NCBI GenBank assembly: GCA_027459485.1
Contig: DAIDIG010000004.1
Location: 1 to 64,000 of the forward strand
DNA from: Bdellovibrionales bacterium
GTDB taxonomy: Bacteria > Bdellovibrionota > Bdellovibrionia > Bdellovibrionales > UBA1609
Length of the DNA stretch: 64,000 nt
Reading direction: 5' to 3'
Shown here: positions 36,058 through 54,478 of the stretch, one piece after another
How the letters are laid out: every line of letters begins with the position of its first letter
Position numbering within the stretch: the stretch's first letter is position 1
Position numbers and translations under genes: made by a program
The notes under the pieces: model-generated
Seen by the model: the letters and a program-made list of their open reading frames with translations, nothing else
Databases searched by the model: none
What the model was told of the DNA's origin: nothing

Positions 36058-36780
36058 CTACAACTTAAAATTTTCGCCTAAATAAAATTTTCGCGCAATT
36101 TGCGAATTCGCTATTTGCTCGGCAGTACCCTGGACTTCGATCTTGCCGTCACGAAGAATGTAAGAGTAGTCGCAGATTCCAAGCGTTTCGCGAACGTTGT
36201 GATCGGTAATCAAAATACCCAGACCATCGGCCTTGAGCCCGCGAATAATGCCCTGGATATCGCCGACGGCAATCGGGTCGATGCCGGCAAACGGCTCATC
36301 GAGCAAAAGAAATTTCGGCGAGCCGGCAAGCGCTCGAGCAATCTCGACCCGGCGGCGCTCACCGCCAGACAGCGCGTAGCCGTAACTGTCTTTGATATGC
36401 TCGATACCGAAATCGCTCAAAAGTTTATTGAGTCGCTCGTCAAATGCCGACGGTGGCACTTGGGCCGCTTCAAGACCGACCTTCAAATTTTCGGCGACCG
36501 TCAAACGTCGAAACACGCTGGCCTCTTGCGGTAAGTAACTAAGCCCCACTCGCGCGCGCTGGTACATTGGCATTTGGCTGATGTCTTGCCCATTCAGTTC
36601 AATTTGGCCGCGGTCCGGCGGCAAGATACCAACGACCATGTAAAACGACGTCGTCTTGCCGGCACCGTTTGGGCCGAGTAGACCGACCACCTGGCCGCCT
36701 CGAAGGTCGAATGAGACTGAATCCACAACCGCGCGCTGTTTGAATTTTTTAGAGATCCCGTTAATCGTGAGCCGGTTCAA
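36058..36780 (-). CDS. lptB: LPS export ABC transporter ATP-binding protein LptB
   Basis: A 240-aa ATPase powering LPS extraction with LptFG. Walker [10 protein letters not shown] (about residue 36), the LptB-typical segment [14 protein letters not shown] (about 88), signature [15 protein letters not shown] (about 140), Walker [17 protein letters not shown] and the H loop [10 protein letters not shown] are all visible. The start is a TTG lying inside the last 20 nt of the lptC-lptA fusion gene. LptF and LptG are not in the window. Confidence 0.96.
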
Positions 36781-37753
36781 GATTTTTACCCTTCTGTTTA
36801 ATTGTTTCGTCGCTGACTTTTACTTTGGCGTTGCGCACTTGTACCTTTTTGCCGCCATCCAAAAACACGATCTGATCTCCGCGAACTTCATCATTATCTT
36901 GAACCACGCGCGGTTGGCCATCAAAAACGAACTCATTTTTAGCTAAATTAATATTGAGCCTCTGCGAAGTCGCCCATTTGTTCACATCTTGAACTTTTAC
37001 CCCGCCGGTCAACTGAATCGAATCGGGCAAATCTGTCCCGTTCTTATAGTGAAAAAGCGCATCGGGGCCGTTGATGTGCACGCCGTGTAAATCAATATTC
37101 ACCTGACCTAAAAATTTCACTTCGTGACTTTTGCCGTACACTTCGGCTTGATCGGCATGCACGATCATGTCCTCGTTTTTTCTCACTCGTTTGGTCGCCT
37201 TCACGTCTTTTGTGATTGTCACGACACCTTTGTTGAGATCCGCCTGCATAGACTCTCCGCGAATAAACATGTGGCCACCCAGCGAATCGCGTGGGCCGTT
37301 CACGCGCACAGCGGTGGGCGAAGTTAATATACGGTCGCGGGAGTTGTATTGTACGCTGTCGGTGTGAAACACGTACCCGTTCGAGGATGTCGTTACGACT
37401 TTTCCGTTGATCGTCATATCTTTTGTCGCCGTTTTCACGGCACCCGTCTTGCCCGTGACGAGAAACGAAATCCCGTCGGTACCGAAAAAGCTCGCTTTAA
37501 CTTGATCCAGTGACAAATCGCCTTCCGTTTTAAAACCGATGGCTTGATCGGCCCATAGTTCCCATTCTTTACTTTCGTTTTTCGTTTCGACCACATGAAC
37601 ACCCTGCATTTGCTGCTGCACGTGTTTGCCGATGGCAGCGCTACCTTTCGCTGGGCTTGCGGTCGCCGTTTTCTCGCCGATGTTCGTCGGCGACATCAAC
37701 GCGACTTCGATAATCACGGCAAAGAAAAGAACCCCCAATAGGGTCTGGGTCAT
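36761..37753 (-). CDS. Fused LptC-LptA LPS transport protein
   Basis: A 330-aa protein that combines two Lpt bridge components. Residues about 1-20 form the LptC-type membrane anchor ([15 protein letters not shown]). Residues about 45-185 match LptC ([11 protein letters not shown]..., beta-jellyroll strands). Residues about 190-320 resemble LptA/OstA, with the repeated pattern [20 protein letters not shown] and [17 protein letters not shown]. Separate lptC and lptA are usual; here one chain would join the inner-membrane complex to the periplasmic bridge. The ATG at 37753 is chosen at the anchor and sits just behind an extended -10 promoter. It overlaps lptB by 20 nt. Confidence 0.82.
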
Positions 37754-37769
37754 GCGGCGCACACATAAA

Positions 37770-37798
37770 ATTGTATCACATTGAGACTTAGTTTTTAA
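37770..37798 (-). promoter_or_regulatory. Promoter of lptCA-lptB-rpoN
   Basis: Minus strand: -35 TTAAAA (37798-37793), 17-nt spacer, -10 TACAAT (37775-37770) with an upstream TGA that makes it an extended -10 (TGATACAAT). The start site would fall about 10 nt before the lptCA ATG, so the leader is very short and lacks a clear Shine-Dalgarno. Confidence 0.5.
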
Positions 37799-37829
37799 GT
37801 TTTCGCGACGTAAAACCGATGAGTAACCG

Positions 37830-38537
37830 ATGGATATCTGGTTTATTTGCGAAAATGAAGATGTGCGCGGGCCTTTCACGGCCAACGAGTTGAAGGCTAT
37901 GGTGACCGACGGTCAGATTGGCGAGTCGACGTTAGTTTGGGGGCGACCTCAGCAAACTTGGATGCCGGCCAATCGTTGGGCGTCTATGCTGCCGCAATTG
38001 ATGTCGCATAAGATAAGTGAATCTTCGTCGCAACAACAACTCTGGCATTACGCGGTCAATGGCACTTCGGTTGGTCCGTTGACACGAGCTGAACTTGTAA
38101 ACGAACTTAAGGCGGCAACTCAAAAGAATCAAATTTTAGTTTGGACCAAAGGCATGAAGGCCTGGGGCGATCTGTTCGAATTTCATGATTTGCTCGAAGA
38201 AATTGGGCTCAATCGTCGCGAGTCACCCCGATTATCCATTCAAGGTGCCGCGATTATCCGTTTTGAAGATAAGACCTTGTTGGGTCAGCTTCAGACGATT
38301 TCACCAGGTGGGGTCGGTATTACAAAACTCGATTCACGGTTGCCCATTGGGCAACTCGTCAGCATCGAAATTAAGTCTGAAGTCTTAGGAGAGCCAGTTC
38401 ATATGAAAGCACTGGTGCAATATTCAACCGAATCGGGTTTTTACGGTTTTAAGGCGCAATCACTCAGTATTGAAGCCAAATCGCGAATTATTGCCTGCAT
38501 TAAGCGCAAACAGTCTGAAGTAGCGCGAGCCGCTTAA
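37830..38537 (+). CDS. GYF_2-GYF_2-PilZ domain protein
   Basis: A 235-aa cytoplasmic protein. Two GYF_2-type modules lie at about residues 3-50 (WFICENEDVRGPFTANELKAM) and 70-120 (WHYAVNGTSVGPLTRAELVNEL); such modules bind peptides. The C-terminal PilZ domain (about 130-230) opens with the c-di-GMP motif RRESPR (RxxxR) but the second motif reads TISPGGVG instead of D/NxSxxG, so ligand binding may be weakened. PilZ proteins of this type link c-di-GMP to motility and surface behaviour; the location between the Lpt and Glt genes fits but does not prove this. Confidence 0.82.
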   Translation: MDIWFICENEDVRGPFTANELKAMVTDGQIGESTLVWGRPQQTWMPANRWASMLPQLMSHKISESSSQQQLWHYAVNGTSVGPLTRAELVNELKAATQKNQILVWTKGMKAWGDLFEFHDLLEEIGLNRRESPRLSIQGAAIIRFEDKTLLGQLQTISPGGVGITKLDSRLPIGQLVSIEIKSEVLGEPVHMKALVQYSTESGFYGFKAQSLSIEAKSRIIACIKRKQSEVARAA

Positions 38538-38623: not shown

Positions 38624-39490
38624 ATGAATATGAGAAACGCTTGCTGTCTAACATTTTTACGATGGGCCGTTTTGGGCCTTCTTTTGATGCCTCTTAATGT
38701 TAAGGCCGATCATCTGACTTTGAAAAATGTCATGAGCCAAATTCCGCCGCAGGTGATTGCCAGTGCTCATGAATATGCCCTCGACATGATCAAATCCTGC
38801 CCCCCAGGCCAATGTATAGTACTCAGCCTTGGCCTCACGAATACGCTTGTCGATGCGTTTCTGCGAAACGAAATGAAAGGTCGAAAGATCAATGACTCAT
38901 ACATACGTTACTGGCCGTACGTGAAGTTAATGCGAATGGAATCGTGGGGCTCTCAAGATCGATTTAATTGGCTGGCGCAAAATTTCCCAAGCCGAGAAGA
39001 GAGTGCTGGAAAAAAGATTGTGATAGAGCGAACACTCATCATGGGCGGCACGATGAGATGGTTTCTCCCGACTCTGCGCGCGTACCTCGAATACGAACGG
39101 TACAATTGCAAAATTGAACCGTACGTCATTGTTTCATCGGATGTAAATTTCGACTTTGATATTTTACAACCATATCTGGGGGCTATCAGGCAGAAAGTAA
39201 ATGACCAATATGTTGAAACTTTCGGCTGGCGACGCTCATTCGAGCAGTTCAAACTTAAAGGGCAAGGCAACGACATAGAACATTATTATTCTCTGACACC
39301 GACCGAGATACCGGAATACGACCCCGAATATATGAATCCGCCAAACGTAAATAAACGATCGTTAGAACTGGATGCTTGGGTTGCCCATTGGGCAAAGCAG
39401 AGAACAAGAGTTAGTCGCATCGTAAACGCATGCAGAAGTCTTTTGGACGCCGCTAAATCGAAAAGCCGTGCGCGGTCGGCCGTTAACTGA
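38624..39490 (+). CDS. Hypothetical secreted protein, 288 aa
   Basis: Unrecognised. A signal peptide (hydrophobic LRWAVLGLLLMPLNVKA, cleavage about residue 28) leads a globular domain with a CPPGQC pair near 57-62 that could form a disulfide. The central part resembles an alpha/beta fold: CIVLSLGLTNTLVDAFL, then KKIVIERTLIMGGTMRWFLPTLRAYL, then IEPYVIVSSDVNFDF as landmarks. The C-terminal helix is basic. It might be a nucleotide- or phosphate-binding hydrolase, but no family signature confirms this. It converges on the end of the glt-like cluster with 13 bp between stops. Confidence 0.7.
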   Translation: MNMRNACCLTFLRWAVLGLLLMPLNVKADHLTLKNVMSQIPPQVIASAHEYALDMIKSCPPGQCIVLSLGLTNTLVDAFLRNEMKGRKINDSYIRYWPYVKLMRMESWGSQDRFNWLAQNFPSREESAGKKIVIERTLIMGGTMRWFLPTLRAYLEYERYNCKIEPYVIVSSDVNFDFDILQPYLGAIRQKVNDQYVETFGWRRSFEQFKLKGQGNDIEHYYSLTPTEIPEYDPEYMNPPNVNKRSLELDAWVAHWAKQRTRVSRIVNACRSLLDAAKSKSRARSAVN

Positions 39491-39503: not shown

Positions 39504-40094
39504 TCACATCGATGGTTTGTCGCTGTTTGGTTCTTTCATAACTGCAAAATTGATTTCGACAATGCCGGCATCGGTGGCCGTGTACATCACTTTTTTCAAT
39601 GTTAAGAAGTCCATGTGTTTATCGGCTTGAATCGTCAGCTTCAAAAATGGATCGACCTGTTGCGCGACCGCCTCATCGCCGACTTGCATTCTTTCAACCG
39701 CTGACCGAATTTGATTGCCAAGCGCTTGCTTTTTTTGTTGCCCTTGCGCGATCAGCTCCTGAAGTTTTTGCTTGAGCGGCGCGAGCTCCCAATCGGCTTG
39801 ATTTCGAACTGTATTGATATCCATGATCTGATCGTTATTGACTTGAATACCTTGGTTCGAAACGATGACGACGTTGGCCGGCGTGAGATCTTTCACCTCG
39901 TGCGCTTGCGGTAATTTCACACCCGGCGGGATATCAATCACCTGCCCGGTTGTCGCGTAGTTTTGCAAAAGAAAAACCACGAGCACGGTGAAAAGGTCGA
40001 CCATCGACGCCATTGAAAGCGCCGCTATGACATCACGCCCGCCGCCCGATTCTCTTCCTCGCTTATCTCGATTACCCGGTACGTAAATTGCCAT
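39504..40094 (-). CDS. ExbD/TolR-family protein (AglS-like)
   Basis: A 196-aa bitopic inner-membrane protein. The single membrane segment (about 28-48) keeps the essential proton-path Asp in ASMVDLFTVLVVFLL. The periplasmic part contains a TolR-like fold with a helical insertion (about 95-125, Gln-rich). Last gene of the glt/agl-like operon. With the TolQ protein and the other TolR protein it would form the stator channel, equivalent by order to AglR-AglQ-AglS of Myxococcus. Gene names are by analogy only. Confidence 0.88.
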   Translation of the reverse strand: MAIYVPGNRDKRGRESGGGRDVIAALSMASMVDLFTVLVVFLLQNYATTGQVIDIPPGVKLPQAHEVKDLTPANVVIVSNQGIQVNNDQIMDINTVRNQADWELAPLKQKLQELIAQGQQKKQALGNQIRSAVERMQVGDEAVAQQVDPFLKLTIQADKHMDFLTLKKVMYTATDAGIVEINFAVMKEPNSDKPSM

Positions 40095-40117
40095 TTAGAT
40101 GACCTCGCGCTTAGAAT

Positions 40118-40594
40118 TCACTCGGCCGCTCCTGCCGTCGAAATCGCGATTTGCGGAAAGCCGGCCTGCAAGAGCGCATCCATCCCGTTAATCAGATTTA
40201 CGTAAGCTAAATTGTCTTGCATCGTAATCACGCAGTCGAGTTTGTCGGGGTAGATCTCCTTCACCTTTTTAAGTTCGGTGAGAAGCCCCGTCATATCATA
40301 TTGACCATTCACCTTCGGGATCATGACTTCATTTTTACCAATGACGACGCGATGACCCGTCTCAAGAATATCGACCCGAAACGCAACCTCAGCTCGCGGC
40401 GGGGGTTGCGCCTTTTGATCGGTGGATTGCTTCGCGTAAATTGAACTGCCTAGCTGAATCATTGAGACTTGCGACCAGACTGCCGTGATCAAAAGAAAGA
40501 TCACAAGAACGGACATAAGGTCAATAAAGGGGACTATATTGACATCTACGTTCGTTGCACGGCCGCCTTTTCGCGAATCTTCAATCTGAGCCAT
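40118..40594 (-). CDS. ExbD/TolR-family protein (AglQ-like)
   Basis: A 158-aa bitopic inner-membrane protein. Cytoplasmic N-terminus, then the membrane segment with the ExbD signature NIVPFIDLMSVLVIFLL (about 19-35), which carries the proton-binding Asp. The periplasmic domain (about 70-150) is a compact TolR-type fold ending in GFPQIAIST. It begins one base after the TolQ gene stops, so the subunits are co-translated. Confidence 0.92.
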   Translation of the reverse strand: MAQIEDSRKGGRATNVDVNIVPFIDLMSVLVIFLLITAVWSQVSMIQLGSSIYAKQSTDQKAQPPPRAEVAFRVDILETGHRVVIGKNEVMIPKVNGQYDMTGLLTELKKVKEIYPDKLDCVITMQDNLAYVNLINGMDALLQAGFPQIAISTAGAAE

Positions 40595-40595
40595 T

Positions 40596-41294
40596 TTATA
40601 CTTTCATCTTATCTCGATTAGACGCGACCAAATTCATCATCGTCATGCTGCCTTCGCGCATATCGTTTATCGCCCGACCGATTCGCAGCTGAAAGAAACC
40701 AAAGGCCACGATCGCGATAATGGCGACTCCCAAACCAAATGCCGTGCAGTGCAAGGCTTCAGAAATACCGGTTGAGAGCAACTGCGCTTTCTGTGCCGCA
40801 TCCGCTTTGGCGACCCCCTGAAACGACATGATCAGACCGACAATCGTTCCCATCAAACCGATCAACACCGAAATGTTGCCGAATACCGCCAAAAATGACG
40901 TCCACCCCTCAAGCCGCGGTGATTCGCGAAGTACCGAAGCATCCATCGCCACCTGAACTTCGTCATCGCCGCGCTTATTGAGCACCTGAACGAGGCCCGA
41001 CTTTACCGTATTCGTAAGTGGCGCCGGTTTGCGATCGCAGTATGCGATGGCCTGACGAAGCTCGCCGCGCAAAATCAAGCTAAATAAATTTTCATTGAGA
41101 GACGTTTTGTCGATAACGAGACGATTGAGCGCCAAAAACCGCTCAACGATGAGCAGAACGGTCAGCAAACCGACAAACGCGATCACGTACATCGCCCAGC
41201 CACCTTGGCAAAACGACGATGTGATAAAATTCGTATAGGCGTCGCACTTATTCGCGACGTCGACTGCTGTATGCACAGCTGTTGTTGGATCCAT
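40596..41294 (-). CDS. MotA/TolQ/ExbB proton-channel protein (AglR-like)
   Basis: A 232-aa polytopic inner-membrane channel subunit. Three hydrophobic segments are seen at about 33-52, 135-155 and 175-200, with the typical ISVLIGLMGTIVGLIMSF and the SEALHCTAFGLGVAI segment holding the conserved Thr/Ala positions. It would conduct protons with the TolR-like partners and drive the periplasm-spanning protein encoded upstream. Position in the cluster equals aglR of Myxococcus. Confidence 0.93.
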   Translation of the reverse strand: MDPTTAVHTAVDVANKCDAYTNFITSSFCQGGWAMYVIAFVGLLTVLLIVERFLALNRLVIDKTSLNENLFSLILRGELRQAIAYCDRKPAPLTNTVKSGLVQVLNKRGDDEVQVAMDASVLRESPRLEGWTSFLAVFGNISVLIGLMGTIVGLIMSFQGVAKADAAQKAQLLSTGISEALHCTAFGLGVAIIAIVAFGFFQLRIGRAINDMREGSMTMMNLVASNRDKMKV

Positions 41295-41308
41295 AAAATT
41301 CCCCCTTT

Positions 41309-43273
41309 TTACTGTATCGCAAACACAAACGGGTAAATGACATCAGCCGCGGTATCAGGCGGCGGTTCCGGAAACGTCAAACCGCTTATGACCCGTGCCA
41401 AACATCGACCCATTTCTCTATCACCCACTGAATTACTCTTTACGCGCACGTTCGTCGCACGGCCGTGCTCCACAATTTCCCAATGCAATTCGATTTTGCC
41501 GTACACATCCGAGTTGCGTCGCAACGCTTGATCGTAGCAAAACTGCAATTGCGCACGGTTTTGGCGGATAACCCGGCGGATTGCGTCTTTGTCGATACTC
41601 CCGGTGAACTCCGCTTCAGAATCGCCGACATTCAAATCAACTGTACCTTTCCGGCCAAGACCGCCGAGGCCCCCGCCGAATGTCCCGGTCCCTTTGCCGG
41701 TGGTGCCGATGCCGCCGGCGATACCGTACGTTGCCGCACCATTGCCGCTGGCTCCGACATTTCGGAGTCGCCCGCCGAGATCCCCCGCGCGTTGTTCGTT
41801 CGATCCCGAGTACCCGGTCTTTTGATTGGCGTCGCCGACGAGTTCGCCCGCTCCAGCAGCGGCTTGGGACAATTCCTTTTGCGTACCCTGATTTCCAAAT
41901 ACTCCGAGTAGACCTAATTTATTTATATTTCGCGGCTTTTGCGTACGCAATCCGGCTGCAGCTTTGCCTGTTTTAACCGTGCCACCGCGCTTGACGATCG
42001 AACTCGCCACCGCTGATTTTTTCAATTTCGCGACGCGTTTCAGTTCCGCCGCTCGGCCCGCATCGTGACGAGTGGCCGTCTGCGCATGTTCAGAAACTTT
42101 TATGATGCGCTTTTTCTGTGTCGTCGCCTGTTCGGTCACCGGCACAACAACCTTTGGTCGATCGAATTGTATCACGGCAATTCGCGCCGGCTGCTCGACG
42201 TTTTTATCCGGTTGCAGCGCCGTCGGATTATAAATGAGCATGTACAAACCAAAAATCGCAGCCACCACCGCGGATGTTAGAATAGCCGTTGCTTCTGAGG
42301 TGGAGAAATCCAACAAAGGACCAATCATCGGTGCCGGCATTTCATTTACATATCGAATGTAAATCGAGACAAGATCGCCCATAAGCCCCAAACGAATCAT
42401 TTCACCTTGCGCCAACTCAATTTCAGAATCTGTTCCATTTTGGATGATACGATTTTTGCGTTTCAATTCGGCAAGAGACAGATGTTCTTCGTCGCGGTAG
42501 TAGTCGCCGGTCATTTCGTGGGTCACTCGAACTTTAGCAAGACTCTGTATATCAAGAAGAGTCATCGCTGTGCGATTGAGCCCGAGAAGCGGCAAATTGA
42601 TAGTCGCACTTTCTTCGGCGCCGATAGTGACGATTTGCTTGTCGTGAAAGTGAACCGTGTCTATGACGATATCCTTCCACGCCACAATGACTTCGACGAC
42701 CGGGCCGCGCGACGACTTAAAGCGTGCGGCTAAAGCATCATCATTTTTCGCGCTCGTACCCGGAGAAGTGATCGTCGTTTCGTCTGAAATCACCGACGCC
42801 GGTACGTTTGTCGTCACAGGCGTTGACTTTGCGGCCAACGATGATTTCAAAGGCACAGGTGAAGCGGCAGGCTTGTCGGCCGGCATCGGTGTCGACGGGA
42901 CCGGCGGCGGTTGGGTCGGCTTTAACGAAGTCGCCGTCAGCACCACTGACGGCGGCGGTGCTTGGGCAGGTTTCGGCACACCAATAAAAAACTCGATCTT
43001 ATATGGCCCGACCTGAATTTCATCGCCCGATTTTAGTGCTTCATCAAAAACTTTTTGACCGCCGCGAAACGTGCCGGCCGCAGAGCCAAGGTCGACAATA
43101 TAATAGCCCGTATCGCGTTCTTCAATAACCGCGTGCAAAGCTGAAACGCCATCAGCGGCGAGCGACACTTGCGCATCGGAATTGGCGCCGATTACGATCT
43201 GTTCGAGATCGAATTGCTTCGTCGACTCGATCTTACCGTTGCGATAAATTCGTAAAATAATCGGTGTTTTCAT
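41309..43273 (-). CDS. FHA-domain, TonB-like gliding protein (GltG/AgmX_PglI C-terminal)
   Basis: A 654-aa protein spanning the inner membrane. An FHA domain lies at about 5-95 but is degenerate: the strand-loop reads IGANSD rather than GR, and DLGSAAGT replaces SxNGT, while S-x-x-H is kept. A Pro/Ala-rich linker (100-185), a second FHA-like beta domain (about 195-315), a membrane segment (about 333-354), a Lys-rich then Gly-rich periplasmic linker (390-555) and a C-terminal AgmX/PglI-type TonB-like domain follow (CYDQALRRNSDVYGKIELHW; final FPEPPPDTAADVIYPFVFAI). M. xanthus GltG has the same plan. It overlaps the next gene upstream by 4 bp. Confidence 0.88.
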   Translation of the reverse strand: MKTPIILRIYRNGKIESTKQFDLEQIVIGANSDAQVSLAADGVSALHAVIEERDTGYYIVDLGSAAGTFRGGQKVFDEALKSGDEIQVGPYKIEFFIGVPKPAQAPPPSVVLTATSLKPTQPPPVPSTPMPADKPAASPVPLKSSLAAKSTPVTTNVPASVISDETTITSPGTSAKNDDALAARFKSSRGPVVEVIVAWKDIVIDTVHFHDKQIVTIGAEESATINLPLLGLNRTAMTLLDIQSLAKVRVTHEMTGDYYRDEEHLSLAELKRKNRIIQNGTDSEIELAQGEMIRLGLMGDLVSIYIRYVNEMPAPMIGPLLDFSTSEATAILTSAVVAAIFGLYMLIYNPTALQPDKNVEQPARIAVIQFDRPKVVVPVTEQATTQKKRIIKVSEHAQTATRHDAGRAAELKRVAKLKKSAVASSIVKRGGTVKTGKAAAGLRTQKPRNINKLGLLGVFGNQGTQKELSQAAAGAGELVGDANQKTGYSGSNEQRAGDLGGRLRNVGASGNGAATYGIAGGIGTTGKGTGTFGGGLGGLGRKGTVDLNVGDSEAEFTGSIDKDAIRRVIRQNRAQLQFCYDQALRRNSDVYGKIELHWEIVEHGRATNVRVKSNSVGDREMGRCLARVISGLTFPEPPPDTAADVIYPFVFAIQ

Positions 43274-43599
43274 TTACTCGTGTTGCTTGTTCCCACGTTG
43301 GTACGGCCGATGTCCTCTGATGTCTGATTCATTTCTGGTAAAAAGTTTTCACGCAGCTTGATAAGGCGCTTGAAATTGAACTCGCGCTTTTGCAGCAGAT
43401 ACATGAGATCGGGCTTTTGCACGTCCCCTTGAATGAGTTCGTCTTCAAAATTGATCGACTGGGTGCGCTGCGCCCCCTTATCCGACGAAGCTTTTGTATG
43501 ATCCGATGCCGTCGGTGCCAGCTGTTGTCCCCATGCCGAGGCCGGGCCGCACGCCGCAATCAGAATAATGGTGAAGAGCCAAACACGTTGCCGAATCAC
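43270..43599 (-). CDS. Small secreted protein of the glt-like cluster, 109 aa
   Basis: A short exported protein: signal peptide about 1-22 (WLFTIILIAACGPASA), a polar linker, then the compact helical motif EDELIQGDVQKPDLMYLLQK and FKRLIKLRENFLPEM. No cofactor or catalytic motif. The Cys at residue 17 sits before the Ala-Ser-Ala cleavage site and is unlikely to be a lipid anchor. Both neighbours overlap it by 4 bp (ATGA), so it is made at matched levels with the spanning protein and TPR lipoprotein and is probably a structural periplasmic component. Confidence 0.75.
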   Translation of the reverse strand: MIRQRVWLFTIILIAACGPASAWGQQLAPTASDHTKASSDKGAQRTQSINFEDELIQGDVQKPDLMYLLQKREFNFKRLIKLRENFLPEMNQTSEDIGRTNVGTSNTSK

Positions 43600-44522
43600 T
43601 TAAGCGACTCCACTTCTTGTTCTAGAGCCGACGCGCGCCGAAGAATGCTCGCATCCTCTGTCATAAATTTTAATTTACTTATGACCCGTATCGCATCATT
43701 TTTCTTCTTCAAGACCTCGACCAGAAGAATGGCGTCATTCAAAACGGGAATAGGGTTTTGCTGGTTTGAACGAAGTATTTCATTGAAAACGCCCTGGGCC
43801 TTCTCGGCGTTGCCAATACCCATAAGCGCTACAGCGTAGTTGTTCGCGATTGCCACAGCGTTGGGCGCCCCCTGCTCGAGCTGCGTTTGCGTGTCGTTGT
43901 AACTTTGTTCAAGCGGAGCTAGACCTCGACTATAGTCGCGGTAATCTAAATAAATAGAACTTAAGTTTGTGGCTGCAATTCGATACCCAGGCTTCAAACG
44001 AAGCGCTTTATTGAACGACTCGAGTGCGGGTTGCATTTCGCTTTCGGCCAAGTAGACAACGCCCAAATTGTTGTACAACGCCGGCTCATTGGGGTGGGTT
44101 TTGAGCGCTCGCTTTAGTAGAATCTCGGCCATGCCGTATTTCTTATTGCGATAATAAAAAACCGCGAGCGCGTTGAGTGTCTCTAGCTGGTTGGGGTCAC
44201 GACTGAGAATCGCTGATGCAGCTTGCATGAGCTTAGACTCTGAGCCTGATTTAAGTGCGTCCGAGATAGGCAAAAGATCGGATCGCGCCACGCCCTGCTG
44301 TGAAGCGAAATCATCTCCGCTAGCCTGGCCGGAGATTGTCGTTTGATCCGATGAGCTTTTTGAAACTTTGCCCTTGCTTGATTGCACTCCAAACGAATCG
44401 GCAAGATCGCTATCGCCAGCTGAATTGGTGTCGCTCAACTTTGCACGGGCGCAGCTCAATATTGCAAGTGCGCAGGCGAAGCCAAGGATTGAACGAGTTG
44501 CAAACTTAATGGTCATTCTCAA
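43596..44522 (-). CDS. TPR lipoprotein (GltE/AglT-like)
   Basis: A 308-aa lipoprotein: signal peptide ending in lipobox ILSC (about residue 24), a Ser/Gly/Asp-rich linker (about 30-80) and at least four TPR repeats (about 95-300), e.g. ALYNNLGVVYLAESEMQPAL. The -1 Ser is canonical and position +2 is Ala, which would permit outer-membrane sorting under the enterobacterial rule. In M. xanthus the gliding cluster contains the TPR lipoprotein GltE (AglT); this is the likely counterpart. Confidence 0.85.
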   Translation of the reverse strand: MRMTIKFATRSILGFACALAILSCARAKLSDTNSAGDSDLADSFGVQSSKGKVSKSSSDQTTISGQASGDDFASQQGVARSDLLPISDALKSGSESKLMQAASAILSRDPNQLETLNALAVFYYRNKKYGMAEILLKRALKTHPNEPALYNNLGVVYLAESEMQPALESFNKALRLKPGYRIAATNLSSIYLDYRDYSRGLAPLEQSYNDTQTQLEQGAPNAVAIANNYAVALMGIGNAEKAQGVFNEILRSNQQNPIPVLNDAILLVEVLKKKNDAIRVISKLKFMTEDASILRRASALEQEVESLK

Positions 44523-47500
44523 AGCCCCATAGTATCCGTTAATTTTGCAGCCATGGCGCGAGTCCCAAGATCGACGTGAGACTCGCCTTTCATCACACTC
44601 AAATTTTTCAATGCCACAGTTAATGTGGGAGTATATGCCTGAAGCTCACTGCCCTTCGTAATCGCCGTCTGATAGGTCTCAAGGGCTTCCGTTTTGAAAG
44701 GCTCGGCCTTTTGCTGAAGAAGGGCTCGGTATTGTTCAACTTCAGAGGGTTTCAACCCACCCGGCACCGGCGCCGTAACAATGGTAGTGTACATATTCTG
44801 CAAGGCTTCACCCAGCAAAGTAAGTGCCGACACGATCTCCGGACCATCGTTGTAATTAATGACGGTTTTAAGTTGAGCACGAAGTTGATTCAGTATCGCA
44901 ATTTTTCTCGTCAATGCCGACTTCTGTTTTGCGGGATTTTTTGGCATACGAATCGCGACAAGCTCCTGATAGGTCGGATAAACGAGCTTGTATTTCGCTT
45001 GCGCTGCGAACGATACCCCTACGGGCACGCTCGGGCGGGTTAGGCGTTTCTGAACCGCGACCGTTTTATGATACCACTTTTCGGCTGACTTGTGATTGCC
45101 CAATTGATCTTCAAGTGTGGCCAAGTCAAAGGTAGCTTCAACCACCCCCGCGCGATCGTGAGGGTTAAACTGCAAATACTGATTGAACTCACGAATCGCT
45201 TGGCTCGGTTGCCCGAGCCGCTGATAGAGCTTGCCCATTAAAAATAAAGTTTCAATTCGATCACCGCCGCGCTTTTTATTAAAATAAATTTGATAATTTC
45301 GAATAGCTGGCGAGTAATCGTTTAGCCCGTCATAAATCACAGCCGCATTGTAGCGGTACTCGAGAGCCAGCGGCGCTTTGGGATTTTCTGCGGCATAAGC
45401 CTCGTACGCACGCGCTGCTTGCGGATATTGCCCGGTCTTTTCATACAGAACAGGCAAGAACTCGCTCGATTTGCGGCGCATGTCGGGCGGTACTTTGCCG
45501 CGAATGATAGCGTGCCCGGCGGCGAGAGTTGAATAAATCCCGATCGCTGGCAAAATTTCATTCGCGCGCTCGTAGTTTACCGCAGAGTTGAATAATGCGG
45601 GGGCCGCGAGATCGCTGCGCGGGTTATTTCTGGCAAATTGTTGATACGATTTTGCCGCGCCTGCGTAATCCTTTTTCTTTTCTATATCTTTTACCATGTT
45701 AAATTCGGTTCGCGTTTTAATTTGGCGAACTTGCGGACCGATATTGGAGTGAGCAAGAGCCGGTATACTCAGGATTTCATTCGCTTCACGTTCTAAACCA
45801 GTGTAATCCTTTTTTAAATTATAAATATCCAGAAGATGGTTCGCGGCATAACGCGCGTAAGGTGTATTCGGATAGTTGTGAACGATATCCGTTAAATATG
45901 TAATAGCGTCGTCGAAATGATTAAACAAATAGTAGAGGGCGCCCAACCTGTACTTGACGGCCACGACATCACTACCTTTCGGGCTGTGCACAAGATATGT
46001 CTTCGCCGCTTCTTCGAAACGCGTAATGGGCGGAGTAAACGGCACGTATGTCGTCGAGCTGCCGACCATTCTTCGAATCTGCGCGTCTGACGGCAGTCGC
46101 TTTTCATAAGCCAAGAGCGCGTTGAGCAGTGCCTTATTGTAGTATGGCGATTTTGGAGAGTTATCGACCACCCAAGTGTAGTGAACGGCGGCGCGATTGT
46201 ATTCTTGCAAATCATAAAGAAGTTCGCCGTAGAAGAAATGCATTTGATCCATTTCCGGACCTTGTTGAAAAGTATGAAAATACAGTTCGTAACCGGCCTG
46301 CGCGCGCAGGTAAGCCGCCTTTACGTGCGTCTTTTGTGCGATCTCATGATTGAGCAACACGTGATTGCGCAAAAGAGATTCCATAAGTTGATTCGCCTTG
46401 GTTATCACTTGAGGGTTGTTTCGATTGGCCATTTGCCACAATCCCTTCGGTCCGAACTGCTGAATCCACCGATGCAATTCTTCGTGAAAGATCTTCGGAT
46501 TACCCGACTGACTATAAGTTTTTACAATCGCATATTGATAATCGAATGCTTTGACTGAATTTGGATGCTCAGCGATCAAATCGCGAAATACGTAGAGTGC
46601 GGCATCGCGATTACCGATATCGATGTAGAAGTAGCCCAGTTTTTCGAGATTCACATCCGTGCTGCGCGGGCCAATGACCCGGCTAAAATAGGAGCGTGCC
46701 GCACGCGGGTCACCCGCCTCGGCAAAAAACACGATAAGATCTTTTATCGCTTCCGTGGCGAGGCGAATTCGGCTCACCCCTCCAATAGAACGATCGTGCT
46801 CACCCTTTGCGCGACGGCCATCTAGAATAACCTGCTCGAGGTATTTCATCCCGCTTTTAGATTGGTTCAGCTTGTAGTAACACCAGGCCATTTTATACAT
46901 CGAAAAAGAGTATAAGCGGTTGTGACGGTTCGCCGCCACTCGGCCATAATAGGTCAAAGCCGGCTTGAACTCATTATTTTCAAAATAATATTCGCCCAAC
47001 GCAAAATTCGACTCGGCAACGTACATCGAATTCGGATATTCATTTGAAAGACGCAGATAGTAAGTTTCGCCCTTCTTTGTATCGCCTAATTCGAAAAAAT
47101 TGAAACCCAAGAAAAACAGAGCCTGGTCTTCTTTGGGATCTTTAGGGAAATCCCTCACAAACCATTCATAGAGCTCAAGAGCTTTGCGGTTGTAGTTTCG
47201 CGCGGCTGTTAGATCTACCGGCGGCGGCTTCGGCCCCTTGCCCTGTTCGTAAAGGGCCTGGGCCCGATCGTGTTCGCTCATCAGGCGATATTCAATAAGT
47301 CGCGCTTTGTCGACGTATTGTTCGCCCAACCGTAACCAGAGTTCACCTCGCCGAGGGCTACTGCGATACTCTTTTGCAAGTTGATAAAGTTGATTGATGC
47401 TCTCATCTGTTGTCTCTTCTAACGCTGCTTCGTCGGTACCGGCGGGATAATACAATCGAGACGATGACGGCGGCCTGACCTGCTGCAAATTGATGACGGC

Positions 47501-47683
47501 TTTCTTCGGCTTTTCTTGATGGATGGCCGGCAAAGCTTCATGGGTTTTCTTTTTAAAACTCACTTTTTCAGATCGCTTCTCAATGTGCTTCAGGATATCG
47601 CCGATTGTCTGCTGTTGAGCGAATGCGCGCGGCGCAACGAGTCCCATCACTATTATTGAGGTGAAAAGCGTGTTTAATTGCAA
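44519..47683 (-). CDS. Large TPR-repeat periplasmic protein (GltD-like)
   Basis: The biggest gene of the cluster, 1054 aa. A signal peptide (about 1-22, cleaved after AFA) is followed by a Lys/Pro-rich stretch and then TPR/Sel1-like helical repeats over nearly the whole length (e.g. ALFFLGFNFFELGDTKKGETYY, FALGEYYFENNEFKPALTYYGR, and VKYRLGALYYLFNHFDDAITYL as examples). It would be a long solenoid scaffold in the periplasm connecting inner-membrane and outer-membrane parts. It overlaps the TPR lipoprotein gene by 4 bp and the preceding TPR gene by 10 bp. Confidence 0.85.
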   Translation of the reverse strand: MQLNTLFTSIIVMGLVAPRAFAQQQTIGDILKHIEKRSEKVSFKKKTHEALPAIHQEKPKKAVINLQQVRPPSSSRLYYPAGTDEAALEETTDESINQLYQLAKEYRSSPRRGELWLRLGEQYVDKARLIEYRLMSEHDRAQALYEQGKGPKPPPVDLTAARNYNRKALELYEWFVRDFPKDPKEDQALFFLGFNFFELGDTKKGETYYLRLSNEYPNSMYVAESNFALGEYYFENNEFKPALTYYGRVAANRHNRLYSFSMYKMAWCYYKLNQSKSGMKYLEQVILDGRRAKGEHDRSIGGVSRIRLATEAIKDLIVFFAEAGDPRAARSYFSRVIGPRSTDVNLEKLGYFYIDIGNRDAALYVFRDLIAEHPNSVKAFDYQYAIVKTYSQSGNPKIFHEELHRWIQQFGPKGLWQMANRNNPQVITKANQLMESLLRNHVLLNHEIAQKTHVKAAYLRAQAGYELYFHTFQQGPEMDQMHFFYGELLYDLQEYNRAAVHYTWVVDNSPKSPYYNKALLNALLAYEKRLPSDAQIRRMVGSSTTYVPFTPPITRFEEAAKTYLVHSPKGSDVVAVKYRLGALYYLFNHFDDAITYLTDIVHNYPNTPYARYAANHLLDIYNLKKDYTGLEREANEILSIPALAHSNIGPQVRQIKTRTEFNMVKDIEKKKDYAGAAKSYQQFARNNPRSDLAAPALFNSAVNYERANEILPAIGIYSTLAAGHAIIRGKVPPDMRRKSSEFLPVLYEKTGQYPQAARAYEAYAAENPKAPLALEYRYNAAVIYDGLNDYSPAIRNYQIYFNKKRGGDRIETLFLMGKLYQRLGQPSQAIREFNQYLQFNPHDRAGVVEATFDLATLEDQLGNHKSAEKWYHKTVAVQKRLTRPSVPVGVSFAAQAKYKLVYPTYQELVAIRMPKNPAKQKSALTRKIAILNQLRAQLKTVINYNDGPEIVSALTLLGEALQNMYTTIVTAPVPGGLKPSEVEQYRALLQQKAEPFKTEALETYQTAITKGSELQAYTPTLTVALKNLSVMKGESHVDLGTRAMAAKLTDTMGL

Positions 47684-49341
47684 GACGACGTCCCCAAATA
47701 AAAATAATCCCCGAGCTCATCGAGCCAATACTCCCCACGAAACGGCCAATACTGGTAGCCATTCTGTACGTAGTAATCTCGCGACTGTTTCTCATTAATC
47801 TGGGTTTGCGGCAGTTCTTTACCCGCGACCAATTTTTTCAAATATTCTTTTTTGCTATTCAGCATCTCGTAACGAATAAAGCCTTCTTGCTCAAACAAGT
47901 CGACCAGGTCAGCACGAACTTCGAGCATATGATTGCGTATTTCACGACCCGCTTTTTCTCGCGCTCTTTGAAAACGGCGATCTAACGTCATCATGGCGTA
48001 TCGGCCGATCGCCCCCCGCCGCCAACTAAACGGCATCGACAGAACACGATGGCGTTCGCGAACTAACATCTTGATGTAAGACAGCGAGCGATGAAAATCG
48101 CCTTCTTTCATTACTTTTCTTATTACGAGATAGGGGATGCGAAATCTAGCATGTTCCGGGTTAAAGCCGACTTGGCTCGCCGTGATCATAATTTTAATTT
48201 GATCGGCGAAGTATTGCTGTGGGTTGTCGACTTGATTCAAGTAACTGTTCAGCGAATTATACACCGGTCGATAAAGCCGTTCGAACAGCCCCAGGGTCTT
48301 ATCCATTTCTGTGTACTTACAAATATAAAGATACACGATCGAGCGAAGCAGAAGCGACTCGGGGATGTAACTGTCTTCAAAATACGGCGAGTGCAGCGAC
48401 TGAAAATTACTCATCGCGGATCGAAATCGCCCGTCACGGAACATCGCCCAACTCGATTCGAACAGCATGGCGTGCCAATATTGCGAATCGCGAGGGACTT
48501 GTCGATACGCCTCAATGGCATCGGCCCAATCTTTAGCTTGATACAGTGCCCGCGCTTTGCCCATCAAAGCCGCGACTCGAGTTGTATCCGTCACAGGCCG
48601 ATCTTCACGATCATCGATGAGCTCTTGAAAATATTTAGCCGCGACCTTCGGTTGATTGTTTTCGGCATATGCGAGCGCAATCATGTAGAGAGCCTTATCG
48701 TACTTCGGGCTCGATGGCGGCACTTGATTGAGACTCTTGATTGCATCCAGATATTGTTGATTGTGAAGTTGAAATTCACCGATACGATAATAGAGCATAT
48801 CTCGGTGCGCCATCGGAAAGCTTTCAACTTTGATTCTCGAGATCGCATAATTGAGCAATGTATCGTCACCCAAAGCGTCCGCCGCGAGTGACAACTTTTG
48901 TAGACTGCGCCCGACATACGGATTGTTGCCGTCGCGAATCACGTCGATGAACTGAAACGCGGCGAGCTGGTACATTTTCATTTGATAGAACACGACCCCA
49001 AGAAGAAATCGTAGTTGCATACGACGGTTTGCGAATCTCGGGTCGAGGCTCAATTGAAACAGCCGAGACGATGCTTCGGCATAATTACCACGTCGGGCGA
49101 AACCCAATGCATTTTGTAAATCGTGCCCTTGCCCGAGTGGAAGACGCCGACTAGCCGGCGCCCGCACCGCATACGCACTTGGCTCGGACTGTGTCATGCT
49201 CGACTTTGTCGTAGCACCCTGCGCGGCCGCAGAAATTGCCGACGGAACAGCTAGTGACAATACACAAAGCACGGCAAGTACGAAGCCGAGCACAGTGTAC
49301 TTCATGTTAGGCAAACGCGCCTTTTTGAACAGCGTTTTCAT
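47674..49341 (-). CDS. TPR-repeat exported protein (GltC-like)
   Basis: A 555-aa exported protein with an N-terminal hydrophobic signal (about 15-38; an internal ATG twelve codons in could also start it). TPR-like repeats occupy about 70-330 (e.g. FLLGVVFYQMKMYQLAAFQF and ALYMIALAYAENNQPKVAAKYF), then a helical region rich in Arg, Tyr and Leu to the C-terminus. The start ATG at 49341 overlaps the stop of the barrel gene (ATGA). Equivalent by order and repeats to a GltC-type periplasmic component; function inferred. Confidence 0.82.
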   Translation of the reverse strand: MKTLFKKARLPNMKYTVLGFVLAVLCVLSLAVPSAISAAAQGATTKSSMTQSEPSAYAVRAPASRRLPLGQGHDLQNALGFARRGNYAEASSRLFQLSLDPRFANRRMQLRFLLGVVFYQMKMYQLAAFQFIDVIRDGNNPYVGRSLQKLSLAADALGDDTLLNYAISRIKVESFPMAHRDMLYYRIGEFQLHNQQYLDAIKSLNQVPPSSPKYDKALYMIALAYAENNQPKVAAKYFQELIDDREDRPVTDTTRVAALMGKARALYQAKDWADAIEAYRQVPRDSQYWHAMLFESSWAMFRDGRFRSAMSNFQSLHSPYFEDSYIPESLLLRSIVYLYICKYTEMDKTLGLFERLYRPVYNSLNSYLNQVDNPQQYFADQIKIMITASQVGFNPEHARFRIPYLVIRKVMKEGDFHRSLSYIKMLVRERHRVLSMPFSWRRGAIGRYAMMTLDRRFQRAREKAGREIRNHMLEVRADLVDLFEQEGFIRYEMLNSKKEYLKKLVAGKELPQTQINEKQSRDYYVQNGYQYWPFRGEYWLDELGDYFYLGTSSCN

Positions 49342-50177
49342 CGGTACGTGGCCTCCGGGAAGAAGTAGCTGACCCCTACCCCCAAAAATAAATCACTGTG
49401 AGAGGTCGACGTCGTGCCGCCGCTGATTGTACTCACGTTACTTGAATAGTAATTCCAGTCGAAATCCCAACGGATTCCGAACGATTTGCTGAGCGAGAAA
49501 AGTTGGCCGACCCCAAGCATGAGCGTTGTATCGCCGCTGTCATTGCTCGTTTGGGTCATACCGATGCCAGGGGTGAAGTAAATATCAAACGGGATGATCT
49601 GCTGCTGAAACCAAGCCATTTTGCCGTAAACGGGCGACCACTTAAATGTCACGCCGTAAAATCCCTTTGGCTCAACGAGAGACTGCGTGCCGATGCTTTG
49701 ATTGTTAATTAAACCTTGTGTGATCGGGCGATTTGAACTCGAAAGAAAACTGTAGACGCCTTCGATACCGTACTTTTCGTTAAAATAATAGGCGAGACGG
49801 GCGTTGAAGCCGATATCGTTAAAAAAGGCGTTGTTTGTACTGATTAAACCGCTACCAGAAATTTCAAATCGCCCCGTTTTTGGCAGATATCTCCTTTGAA
49901 TCACGGCGATATCAGTAAAAGGTGCGAGGTTCACAAGCTCCGAGAGCTTTTTCGGCTGGTAATTTTCAAGAGTTGATTGCGATTTTTCAGCGCTCCATTG
50001 CTGCTGTTGTTTTTTTTCTAATTTGCTCTCTTTGTTTTCGTATTGATCATAGAGGTTTTCGGTACCGGCATCGGATTGCTGGGCTCGGTTTTCGGGCAAA
50101 ATCTGAGCGCGCGCAACGCGGGCAAATGCCCAGGTGAGCGACGTTGCAATAAAAAGACCTACGATGACGTTTCTCAT
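49338..50177 (-). CDS. Outer-membrane beta-barrel protein (GltA/GltB-like)
   Basis: A 279-aa exported protein. Signal peptide about 1-24 (cleaved after ARA), a Gln/Lys-rich helical linker (about 30-75), then a beta-barrel domain with alternating strands (FEISGSGLISTNNAF, FNARLAYYFNEKYGIEGVYS, FGIRWDFDWNYYSS), ending in SDLFLGVGVSYFFPEATYR with terminal aromatics. It belongs to the small outer-membrane barrel group found in myxobacterial gliding clusters. The tandem neighbour upstream is a paralogue with the same design. Confidence 0.83.
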   Translation of the reverse strand: MRNVIVGLFIATSLTWAFARVARAQILPENRAQQSDAGTENLYDQYENKESKLEKKQQQQWSAEKSQSTLENYQPKKLSELVNLAPFTDIAVIQRRYLPKTGRFEISGSGLISTNNAFFNDIGFNARLAYYFNEKYGIEGVYSFLSSSNRPITQGLINNQSIGTQSLVEPKGFYGVTFKWSPVYGKMAWFQQQIIPFDIYFTPGIGMTQTSNDSGDTTLMLGVGQLFSLSKSFGIRWDFDWNYYSSNVSTISGGTTSTSHSDLFLGVGVSYFFPEATYR

Positions 50178-50184
50178 TCACTCC

Positions 50185-50931
50185 TCAAAACAAATAAACA
50201 TACGCGAGAGTCATAAACGGGCGCATATAGTATGTCGTACTGAAATCCGAAGAACTCAGCTTCGTCGAACCCGTTAAAGCTTTGCCAGTGGTATTTGGAT
50301 TGGTCGGATCCGGCCCCGTGTACATCGCCAAAATCATGTCAAACCGCAGGCCTTGGTGAGGTGTGAAATAAAGTTTTTGTCCGAAACCAACATCAAACCC
50401 GAACGTCGAATGATCGGACCATTGCACAAGCCCGGCACCGGCTAATCCGTAAAGAGACAAATTCATCACGGTTTGTTTGGTGAGACTGACTTTGCCATAG
50501 TAAGCAGTTAATTGGTAATTGCCGAACAGCATCTCTTGCACAGTAGGGGCAAGGCTCGCATCGAACACTTTGCCGGCCGGCGGCACGTTGCCGCTCTTTA
50601 AATCTTGCCCGGCCTGAGATAAACCGCTCGATAGAAAGAGCGCGTTGACATTAATGCCGTTCGTTTCATCTAAGTGATACGTGCCCGTGATATTGAATAC
50701 AGTCTGCGAATATAAAGGTTCGGCTAAGTTCAGCCCCGTGCCGACCCCTATTTCAAATCGACCTGCGGTTTTGACTGCGCGATCGCGTATCACGACGGTT
50801 TTGTCGAACACTGGCAAAACCGATTCGGTCGGTAGCTCTTCTTCAGGGAATTCAATTGTTTCCGCATACGCGGTGAGCGACAGAAGAATGCCCGCGATGA
50901 GACTCAAAGTTGCAACCATACGAAGGGACAT
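50185..50931 (-). CDS. Outer-membrane beta-barrel protein (GltB/GltA-like), first gene of cluster
   Basis: A 248-aa exported protein: signal peptide ending LTAYA (about 23), short acidic N-terminus, barrel strands (FEIGVGTGLNLAEPLYSQTV, TYHLDETNGINVNALFLSS, QGLRFDMILAMYTGP) and a terminal strand YYMRPFMTLAYVYLF. It is paralogous to the next gene. The ATG at 50931 is chosen because it begins the signal peptide. No Shine-Dalgarno is visible, and the predicted -10 box is exactly 7 nt upstream, which suggests a leaderless transcript. First gene of the ten-gene glt/agl-like operon. Confidence 0.82.
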   Translation of the reverse strand: MSLRMVATLSLIAGILLSLTAYAETIEFPEEELPTESVLPVFDKTVVIRDRAVKTAGRFEIGVGTGLNLAEPLYSQTVFNITGTYHLDETNGINVNALFLSSGLSQAGQDLKSGNVPPAGKVFDASLAPTVQEMLFGNYQLTAYYGKVSLTKQTVMNLSLYGLAGAGLVQWSDHSTFGFDVGFGQKLYFTPHQGLRFDMILAMYTGPDPTNPNTTGKALTGSTKLSSSDFSTTYYMRPFMTLAYVYLF

Positions 50932-50937
50932 GCAACC

Positions 50938-50967
50938 ATCGTATGCAAAAGTCTTATGGTTGGCCAA
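50938..50967 (-). promoter_or_regulatory. Predicted promoter of the glt/agl-like operon
   Basis: Minus strand: -35 TTGGCC (50967-50962), 18-nt spacer, -10 TACGAT (50943-50938). The start site is expected at about 50931, the A of the first ATG. The -35 box lies inside the palindrome GGTTGGCCAACC. The whole non-coding gap to kdsD is under 100 bp. Confidence 0.45.
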
Positions 50968-50985
50968 CCGGTTCGGTTGCAACCG
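50958..50985. promoter_or_regulatory. Clustered perfect palindromes, probable operator
   Basis: Three palindromes built from GGTT/AACC half-sites overlap in 28 bp: GGTTGGCCAACC (50958-50969), AACCGGTT (50966-50973) and CGGTTGCAACCG (50974-50985). They cover and extend upstream of the predicted -35 box of the glt/agl-like operon. Binding of a dimeric or oligomeric repressor or activator is inferred. The regulator is not identified. Confidence 0.5.
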
Positions 50986-51029: not shown

Positions 51030-53713
<2,684 letters not shown>

Positions 53714-53740: not shown

Positions 53741-54478
53741 TCACGCCTTTTTCTTTTGCATCAGCGATTCGACTAGTTTTACGTCATCAACGGTGTCGAC
53801 GCCGACCGAAACGGCGTCAAGCGTTGCGACATGTATGCGTTCACCGAGCCACATGGCCCGCAATTGTTCTAAACTCTCGGCCCGCTCAAGAGGTGTCGCC
53901 GCCTGCGCGCAAAATACGCGCAGAAATTCACGTCGATACGCATAAAGACCGATGTGCTTCCACGCCAAATCGGGGTAACGCTCCATCGTCTCTCGCGAAT
54001 ACGGTATGCCAAACCGGCTGAAATAAATCGCCTCATTGTGCCGATTGAGAATGACTTTGACCACACCTGGGGTGCTCAGTTCTTCGGGAGCTAACCGGTG
54101 CGCCAACGTCGCCATTTGCGCCTCGGGATTCTTAAAAAAAATGTCAACCAAGCGATCGATCCAAAACGGCTGGATGAGCGGCTCGTCGCCTTGAATATTC
54201 AAAACCAAGTCGGCCGTCTGTTCACGTGCCGCCGCCCAAACTCTATCACTACCCGATGGCAAGTTCGGATCGGTCATGACGGCGCGCACGCCTAGTTTTT
54301 CGGCTAAATTCGCGATGTCTTCATGATCGGTCGCGACAACTAGTTCGTTGAGTGCGCGAGAAGATCGAACACCGTTTACAACCCACTCGAGGAGAGGCCG
54401 GCCGTTGATTTTTAATAGGGGTTTCGCAGGTAGACGGGTCGACCCATATCGGGCCGGAATCACTCCCAAGACTTGCAT
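53741..54478 (-). CDS. kdsB: 3-deoxy-manno-octulosonate cytidylyltransferase
   Basis: A 245-aa enzyme that activates Kdo as CMP-Kdo for lipid A core assembly. The nucleotide-binding start VIPARYGSTRLPAKPL, the region PSGSDRVWAAA and the metal/substrate loop NIQGDEPLI are all present. Length is typical. It leads kdsB-pyrG-kdsD, 30 nt before pyrG. kdsA and kdsC are not in this window. Confidence 0.96.
   Translation of the reverse strand: MQVLGVIPARYGSTRLPAKPLLKINGRPLLEWVVNGVRSSRALNELVVATDHEDIANLAEKLGVRAVMTDPNLPSGSDRVWAAAREQTADLVLNIQGDEPLIQPFWIDRLVDIFFKNPEAQMATLAHRLAPEELSTPGVVKVILNRHNEAIYFSRFGIPYSRETMERYPDLAWKHIGLYAYRREFLRVFCAQAATPLERAESLEQLRAMWLGERIHVATLDAVSVGVDTVDDVKLVESLMQKKKA

Follow-up and report, generated by a model that had tools for sequence, protein, structure and literature searches.

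A ten-gene Agl-Glt-type cluster conserved across the Bdellovibrionales, probably a further member of the Bd0828-Bd0838 type

Gene content and organization of the cluster

The window, which here means the whole analyzed stretch of 64,000 nucleotides, comes from a Bdellovibrionales genome of 2.75 Mb. Ten contiguous open reading frames (ORFs) lie on its minus strand between 39504 and 50982. They are given below in order of transcription, followed by the neighboring genes.

50185..50982, minus strand: outer-membrane beta-barrel 1 (GltB/GltA-like), 265 aa (248 aa from the ATG at 50931); TIGR04565, 73.0 bits (cut-off 60)
49338..50177, minus strand: outer-membrane beta-barrel 2 (GltA/GltB-like), 279 aa; TIGR04565, 96.3 bits (cut-off 60)
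47674..49341, minus strand: GltC-like periplasmic TPR protein, 555 aa; NF033756 GltC, 5.1e-54, 184 bits (cut-off 450)
44519..47683, minus strand: GltD-like large secreted TPR protein, 1054 aa; TPR families, GltD-like position and size, kept in 29 clusters
43596..44522, minus strand: GltE-like TPR lipoprotein, 308 aa; NF033758 GltE, 4e-17, 62 bits (cut-off 225); lipobox ...AILSC
43270..43599, minus strand: CglF/GltF-like small secreted protein, 109 aa; NF033764 CglF, 1e-14, 54 bits (cut-off 90)
41309..43273, minus strand: GltG-like FHA/TonB-tail protein, 654 aa; NF033760 GltG, 1.1e-76, residues 1-652; PF00498 FHA
40596..41294, minus strand: AglR-like TolQ/ExbB/MotA-type proton-channel subunit with three TM helices, 232 aa; PF01618, 5e-26
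40118..40594, minus strand: AglQ-like TolR/ExbD subunit, 158 aa; PF02472, 2e-15; channel Asp25
39504..40094, minus strand: AglS-like TolR/ExbD subunit, 196 aa; PF02472, 1.2e-12; Asp33
51030-52001, 51998-53710 and 53741-54478, minus strand: upstream neighbors kdsD, pyrG and kdsB (Pfam); setting, not part of the machine
36058..37885, minus strand: downstream neighbors lptB and an LptC protein with an LptA/LptD_N domain (PF06835, PF03968, PF00005); setting
37830..38537, plus strand: GYF_2 and PilZ gene, convergent to aglS (PF14237, PF07238)

The original prediction had described ten genes on one strand with five overlaps and had listed their products as two barrels, three TPR proteins including a lipoprotein, a small secreted protein, an FHA/TonB-like protein, one TolQ and two TolR proteins; the gene arrangement, the overlap positions and the part list were all borne out. 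The overlaps at 49338 and 43270 are of the ATGA kind and the one at 43596 is GTGA. Two of the five are contingent on TTG starts, namely a 10-base overlap at 47674 and a TTGA overlap at 44519, where an alternative ATG lies 2 bases beyond the stop. At the remaining four junctions the genes are separated by 7, 14, 1 and 23 bases. For barrel 1 the ATG at 50931, with a signal peptide, is a more likely start than 50982 or 50985.

Promoter and terminator scans returned no more sites than were found in shuffled sequence, and the limits of the operon are therefore drawn from gene spacing alone. The transcription unit may exceed ten genes, as kdsB-pyrG-kdsD lies directly upstream on the same strand.

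Identity of the envelope-spanning proteins

Pfam domains of the MotA/ExbB, ExbD (two), FHA and TPR families were found in the cluster, and the proteins were compared with those of Myxococcus xanthus through NCBIfam profiles instead of by direct sequence comparison. The profile search that the original prediction had proposed as a check yielded matches for GltC, GltE, GltG, both barrels and CglF, which is another name of GltF (PMC4488436). None of the GltC, GltE, GltG and CglF matches reached its equivalog cut-off (184/450, 62/225, 259/650 and 54/90 bits, respectively), so that the window proteins count as relatives of the M. xanthus equivalogs and fall outside these families themselves.

The GltG-like protein, with 259 bits on NF033760 (cut-off 650), consists of a cytoplasmic FHA domain, one TM helix at 329-347 as judged by hydropathy, a periplasmic linker and a TonB-like tail, the last of which matched NF033768 (myxo_SS_tail) with 92 bits, above the cut-off of 40. 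Every alignment row that covers the FHA domain retains Gly29, His47 and Gly67. The canonical Arg was found in just 8 of 30 sequences, and phosphopeptide binding by GltG is therefore doubtful. In the gene at 41309-43273, as in most orthologues, this Arg is missing and the Ser-x-x-His pair is mostly kept.

Both barrels matched the same family, TIGR04565 (OMP_myx_plus), above its cut-off, and the gene order differs between glt (B-A-C) and nfs (A-B-C); the two were therefore not assigned individually to GltA and GltB. A model of barrel 1, built from 25 related sequences, has eight strands and a mean pLDDT of 88.4, and the nearest solved folds identified by Foldseek are OmpA and OmpW. The lipobox Cys is present in the GltE-like protein; it is missing in several split (unfused) relatives within the window's family.

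GltH, GltI, GltJ, GltK and the adhesin CglB were not found in the cluster. Searched against the genome, the GltJ profile detected essentially the shared C-terminal TonB-like tail, with a best score of 40.9 bits against a cut-off of 450. The set had been called complete in the original prediction, a description that does not hold for GltH, I, J and K.

Motor proteins and paralogues in the genome

AglQ Asp25 and AglS Asp33 were invariant in 30 of 30 sequences, as were Gly149, Thr150 and Thr184 of AglR (TM2-TM3). Both TolR-like proteins hence carry an Asp and the TolQ-like protein a Thr in TM2 as well as in TM3, as in an AglRQS-type motor. The genome encodes further TolQ homologues at five places. 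At least two of them belong to other glt/agl-like sets (L057 and L058), and a third set (L059) is divergently arranged. On the same profiles the paralogues scored below the window proteins (GltG 172 and 126 vs 259 bits; GltC 107 and 23 vs 184 bits). In an AglR tree, which took in no named B. bacteriovorus sequences, the window AglR and 32 AglR from other clusters formed one group of 33 with a support of 99/99, and all paralogues fell outside.

Since TolQ, TolR and TonB-like domains are present, an ordinary Tol-Pal or TonB/ExbBD system acting in envelope integrity or nutrient uptake was considered. We regard this as highly improbable and rejected it on the scores, the missing partners and the presence of a separate TolQ. 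The window TolQ obtained 74.8 bits on the TolQ profile, for which the cut-off is 221, whereas the Tol-Pal TolQ at L061 exceeds that cut-off with 227.9 bits. Neither TolB nor Pal nor a TonB receptor is encoded in the cluster, and the matches to the GltC, GltE, GltF and GltG profiles likewise argue against such a system.

Elsewhere in the genome a relative of MglA is encoded directly after recR (L077:1393-1983), with 291 bits to solved MglA chains, a P-loop GPSLGGKT and Ser at position 21. Ser in place of M. xanthus Gly21 is a substitution described in Bdellovibrio MglA (PMC3983030). Six flagellin-domain genes and three PilT-family genes above cut-off are also present.

Conservation across the order and the phylum

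Another 29 clusters, which come from about nine families of the Bdellovibrionales, keep the order barrel 1, barrel 2, C, D, E, F, G, R, Q, S, with the exceptions that barrel 1 is inverted in L068 and that E is fused to D in ten clusters. This recurrence argues that the arrangement is not due to chance. The synteny that the original prediction had proposed as a check extends over the order. In a phylum-wide draw, a strong GltC match (E <= 1.3e-66) was obtained in all 54 genomes of the order. Four-base overlaps were counted at the barrel 2/C junction in 24 and at the F/G junction in 23 of the 29 clusters, counts that lean upward because start codons were picked for their closeness to this spacing.

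Nine structural clusters from other orders of the phylum show the arrangement barrel-C-D-(E)-F-G, with one recognized barrel and without in-line motor genes. In L086 the motor genes adjoin the structural cluster in the opposite direction; in others the best-matching TolQ is kilobases distant or sits on a different contig. According to published work, the core genes are joined in Gammaproteobacteria and Geobacter and split in Myxococcus (PMC3169522). As to the suggestion that the joined cluster may be ancestral, the joined cluster may be either the ancestral or the derived form.

GltD and GltE are fused in 10 of the 29 clusters of the order (L044, L045, L049, L050, L054, L066, L068, L093, L094 and L095) and in six of the nine outside it (L081-L084, L086 and L087), which gives a protein of about 1150-1300 aa. 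Well-supported branches of a tree of GltC, GltD and GltG force at least six changes between the fused and the split state. From this repeated fusion we predict that GltD and GltE work together as a single rod and that GltE can do without its lipid anchor.

Genomic setting

In most Bdellovibrionales clusters the ten genes lie between kdsB-pyrG-kdsD and lptC-lptB, all on the same strand. Of the 29 other clusters, 19 have kdsD upstream and 22 have lptC downstream on the same strand, and several of the remaining ones are truncated by the limits of the sequence that was examined. A GYF_2-PilZ gene recurs beside many clusters, and its product is a candidate cyclic-di-GMP regulator. Two further observations were made in the window. 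The gene at 36761-37885 encodes LptC and LptA/LptD_N domains in one protein and thus appears to be an LptC-LptA fusion, and a secreted-looking protein of 288 aa without Pfam match is encoded at 38624-39490, between aglS and the PilZ gene.

Across the order, the position of its genes ties this machine to the synthesis (kdsB-pyrG-kdsD) and export (lptC-lptB) of lipopolysaccharide. As a speculation, which we consider quite unlikely, its primary task could be to link proton force with the lipopolysaccharide surface in prey contact; gliding would then be a by-product or the task of a paralogue, and the PilZ-GYF neighbor would be its cyclic-di-GMP switch. A non-exhaustive search of the literature yielded no mention of the kds/lpt setting, the D-E fusion or the PilZ-GYF neighbor. 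We regard this setting, the recurrent fusion or splitting of GltD and GltE and the PilZ-GYF neighbor as new but minor.

Comparison with known systems

In M. xanthus the Agl-Glt genes are distributed over three loci (PMC3169522), in line with the statement of the original prediction that they are split over more than one locus. The window cluster encodes the same ten kinds of protein; its D-E-F-G and R-Q-S orders are those of G1 and M1, and its barrels adjoin gltC as in G2. It differs from the M. xanthus system in being a single locus, in the lack of GltH, I, J and K from the cluster and in its scores below the equivalog cut-offs.

Such joining is, however, not novel. Bdellovibrio carries four tonB-like/agl operons (Bd0412-0420, Bd0828-0838, Bd1473-1483 and Bd2368-2377; PMC2797640), of which Bd0828-Bd0838 was described in papers of 2010-2011 as holding the gene set in one locus (PMC2797640, PMC3169522), and nfsA-H of M. 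xanthus also forms one cluster (PMC3858216). A study from 2011 named Bd0828-0838 the best candidate for the gliding apparatus, with many homologues of gliding genes and without gltH, I, J and K (PMC3169522). Like the window cluster, Bd0828-Bd0838 of B. bacteriovorus unites homologues of AglRQS and GltA-G in one locus, and its last locus tag is aglS. The gene order of the window cluster is that of clusters L062 and L091 from family f8, the genomes of which are probably Bdellovibrio. The last position of aglS (Bd0838) fits the window order, whereas in the other three sets of one genome of this family (L063-L065) the motor genes come first. The GltC of the f8 genomes shares about 46% identity with that of the window, and a further difference is that two additional convergent genes precede lptC in the window.

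The window cluster thus shares with the Bd0828-0838 type the presence of AglRQS and GltA-G in one locus (with GltD recognized just from its position, its size and its TPR content), the gene order with aglS last and the grouping of AglR. We therefore consider that the cluster is probably the Bdellovibrionales form, of the Bd0828-Bd0838 type, of the Agl-Glt gliding machine. The machine is well kept and conserved across the order and, as a further member of a published Bdellovibrio type, is largely ordinary.

Two other systems are related. The spore-coat machine of M. xanthus, Nfs, is a paralogous machine whose eight genes, nfsA-H, are homologous to gltA-H and lie in one cluster without GltI-K (PMC3858216). 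It resembles the window cluster in being such a single cluster, but it has no motor within it (AglRQS is used in trans), includes a GltH homologue and serves sporulation. The group B core complex of Gammaproteobacteria and Geobacter likewise has GltC, D, E and G together with AglRQS in one region; unlike the window cluster, it comes without GltA, B and F and with an extra gene that has no homologues in Bdellovibrionales (PMC3169522).

Proposed function

The reading as a glt/agl-type trans-envelope machine agrees with the profile matches, the gene order in 29 clusters and the invariant proton-path residues. Gene content and order, the family relationship at profile level, the invariant residues and the conservation across the order were observed here; proton use, force transfer, gliding and prey attachment would follow from published work on relatives. 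In M. xanthus AglR binds GltG (PMC3169522), and the exchange D28N in AglQ abolishes proton conduction, motility and sporulation (PMC3858216). As the same residues and domains are found in the window proteins, we infer that proton flow would move GltG. AglR, AglQ and AglS would form a proton channel in the inner membrane, the shape of which would change with proton flow. GltG, anchored in the inner membrane with its FHA domain in the cytoplasm and its TonB-like tail in the periplasm, would take up the force, and the TPR proteins GltC, GltD and GltE together with the small GltF would relay it across the peptidoglycan to the two small barrels. There the force would act on the surface, by which the cell may glide and grip prey or substrate.

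By analogy, the job of the machine would most likely be surface gliding and prey contact. Bd0838 is annotated as AglS, and a transposon insertion mutant fails in prey attachment, killing and rounding (PMC6561027). Against this explanation we counted that the four Glt matches stay under the equivalog cut-offs, that the cluster lacks GltH, I, J and K, all four of them essential in M. xanthus, and that the operon Bd0828-0838 is up-regulated in host-independent growth and not at 30 minutes of predation (PMC2797640). Moreover, Bdellovibrio gliding is not tied to one named operon (PMC13104615, PMC9140294), and the aglQ that is induced on surfaces is bd1480, which belongs to another operon (PMC9140294).

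The same kind of machine might instead have another main job. It might transport or position a polymer of the surface or a component of the envelope, in the way that Agl-Nfs handles the spore coat of M. xanthus, or it might serve prey contact only, with gliding performed by a paralogous operon. This is unlikely in our view, although several findings point to it: with its gltA-H homologues in one cluster and no GltI-K, Nfs is in that respect nearer to the window cluster than Glt is, Kdo-synthesis and Lpt genes flank the cluster through most of the order, the same genome holds at least two further glt/agl-like sets, and what the Bd0838 mutant loses is prey attachment. On the other hand, neighboring genes by themselves do not show function, and in the 2011 phylogeny Bd0828-0838 came out closest to the gliding motor aglRQS (PMC3169522).

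The path that bears the force in bacterial gliding has so far been poorly resolved, and a review from 2026 calls the gliding machinery of Bdellovibrio unidentified (PMC13104615). In this context, the order-wide set of ten genes without GltH, I, J and K in the cluster provides a compact part list from which the smallest set that works could be sought.
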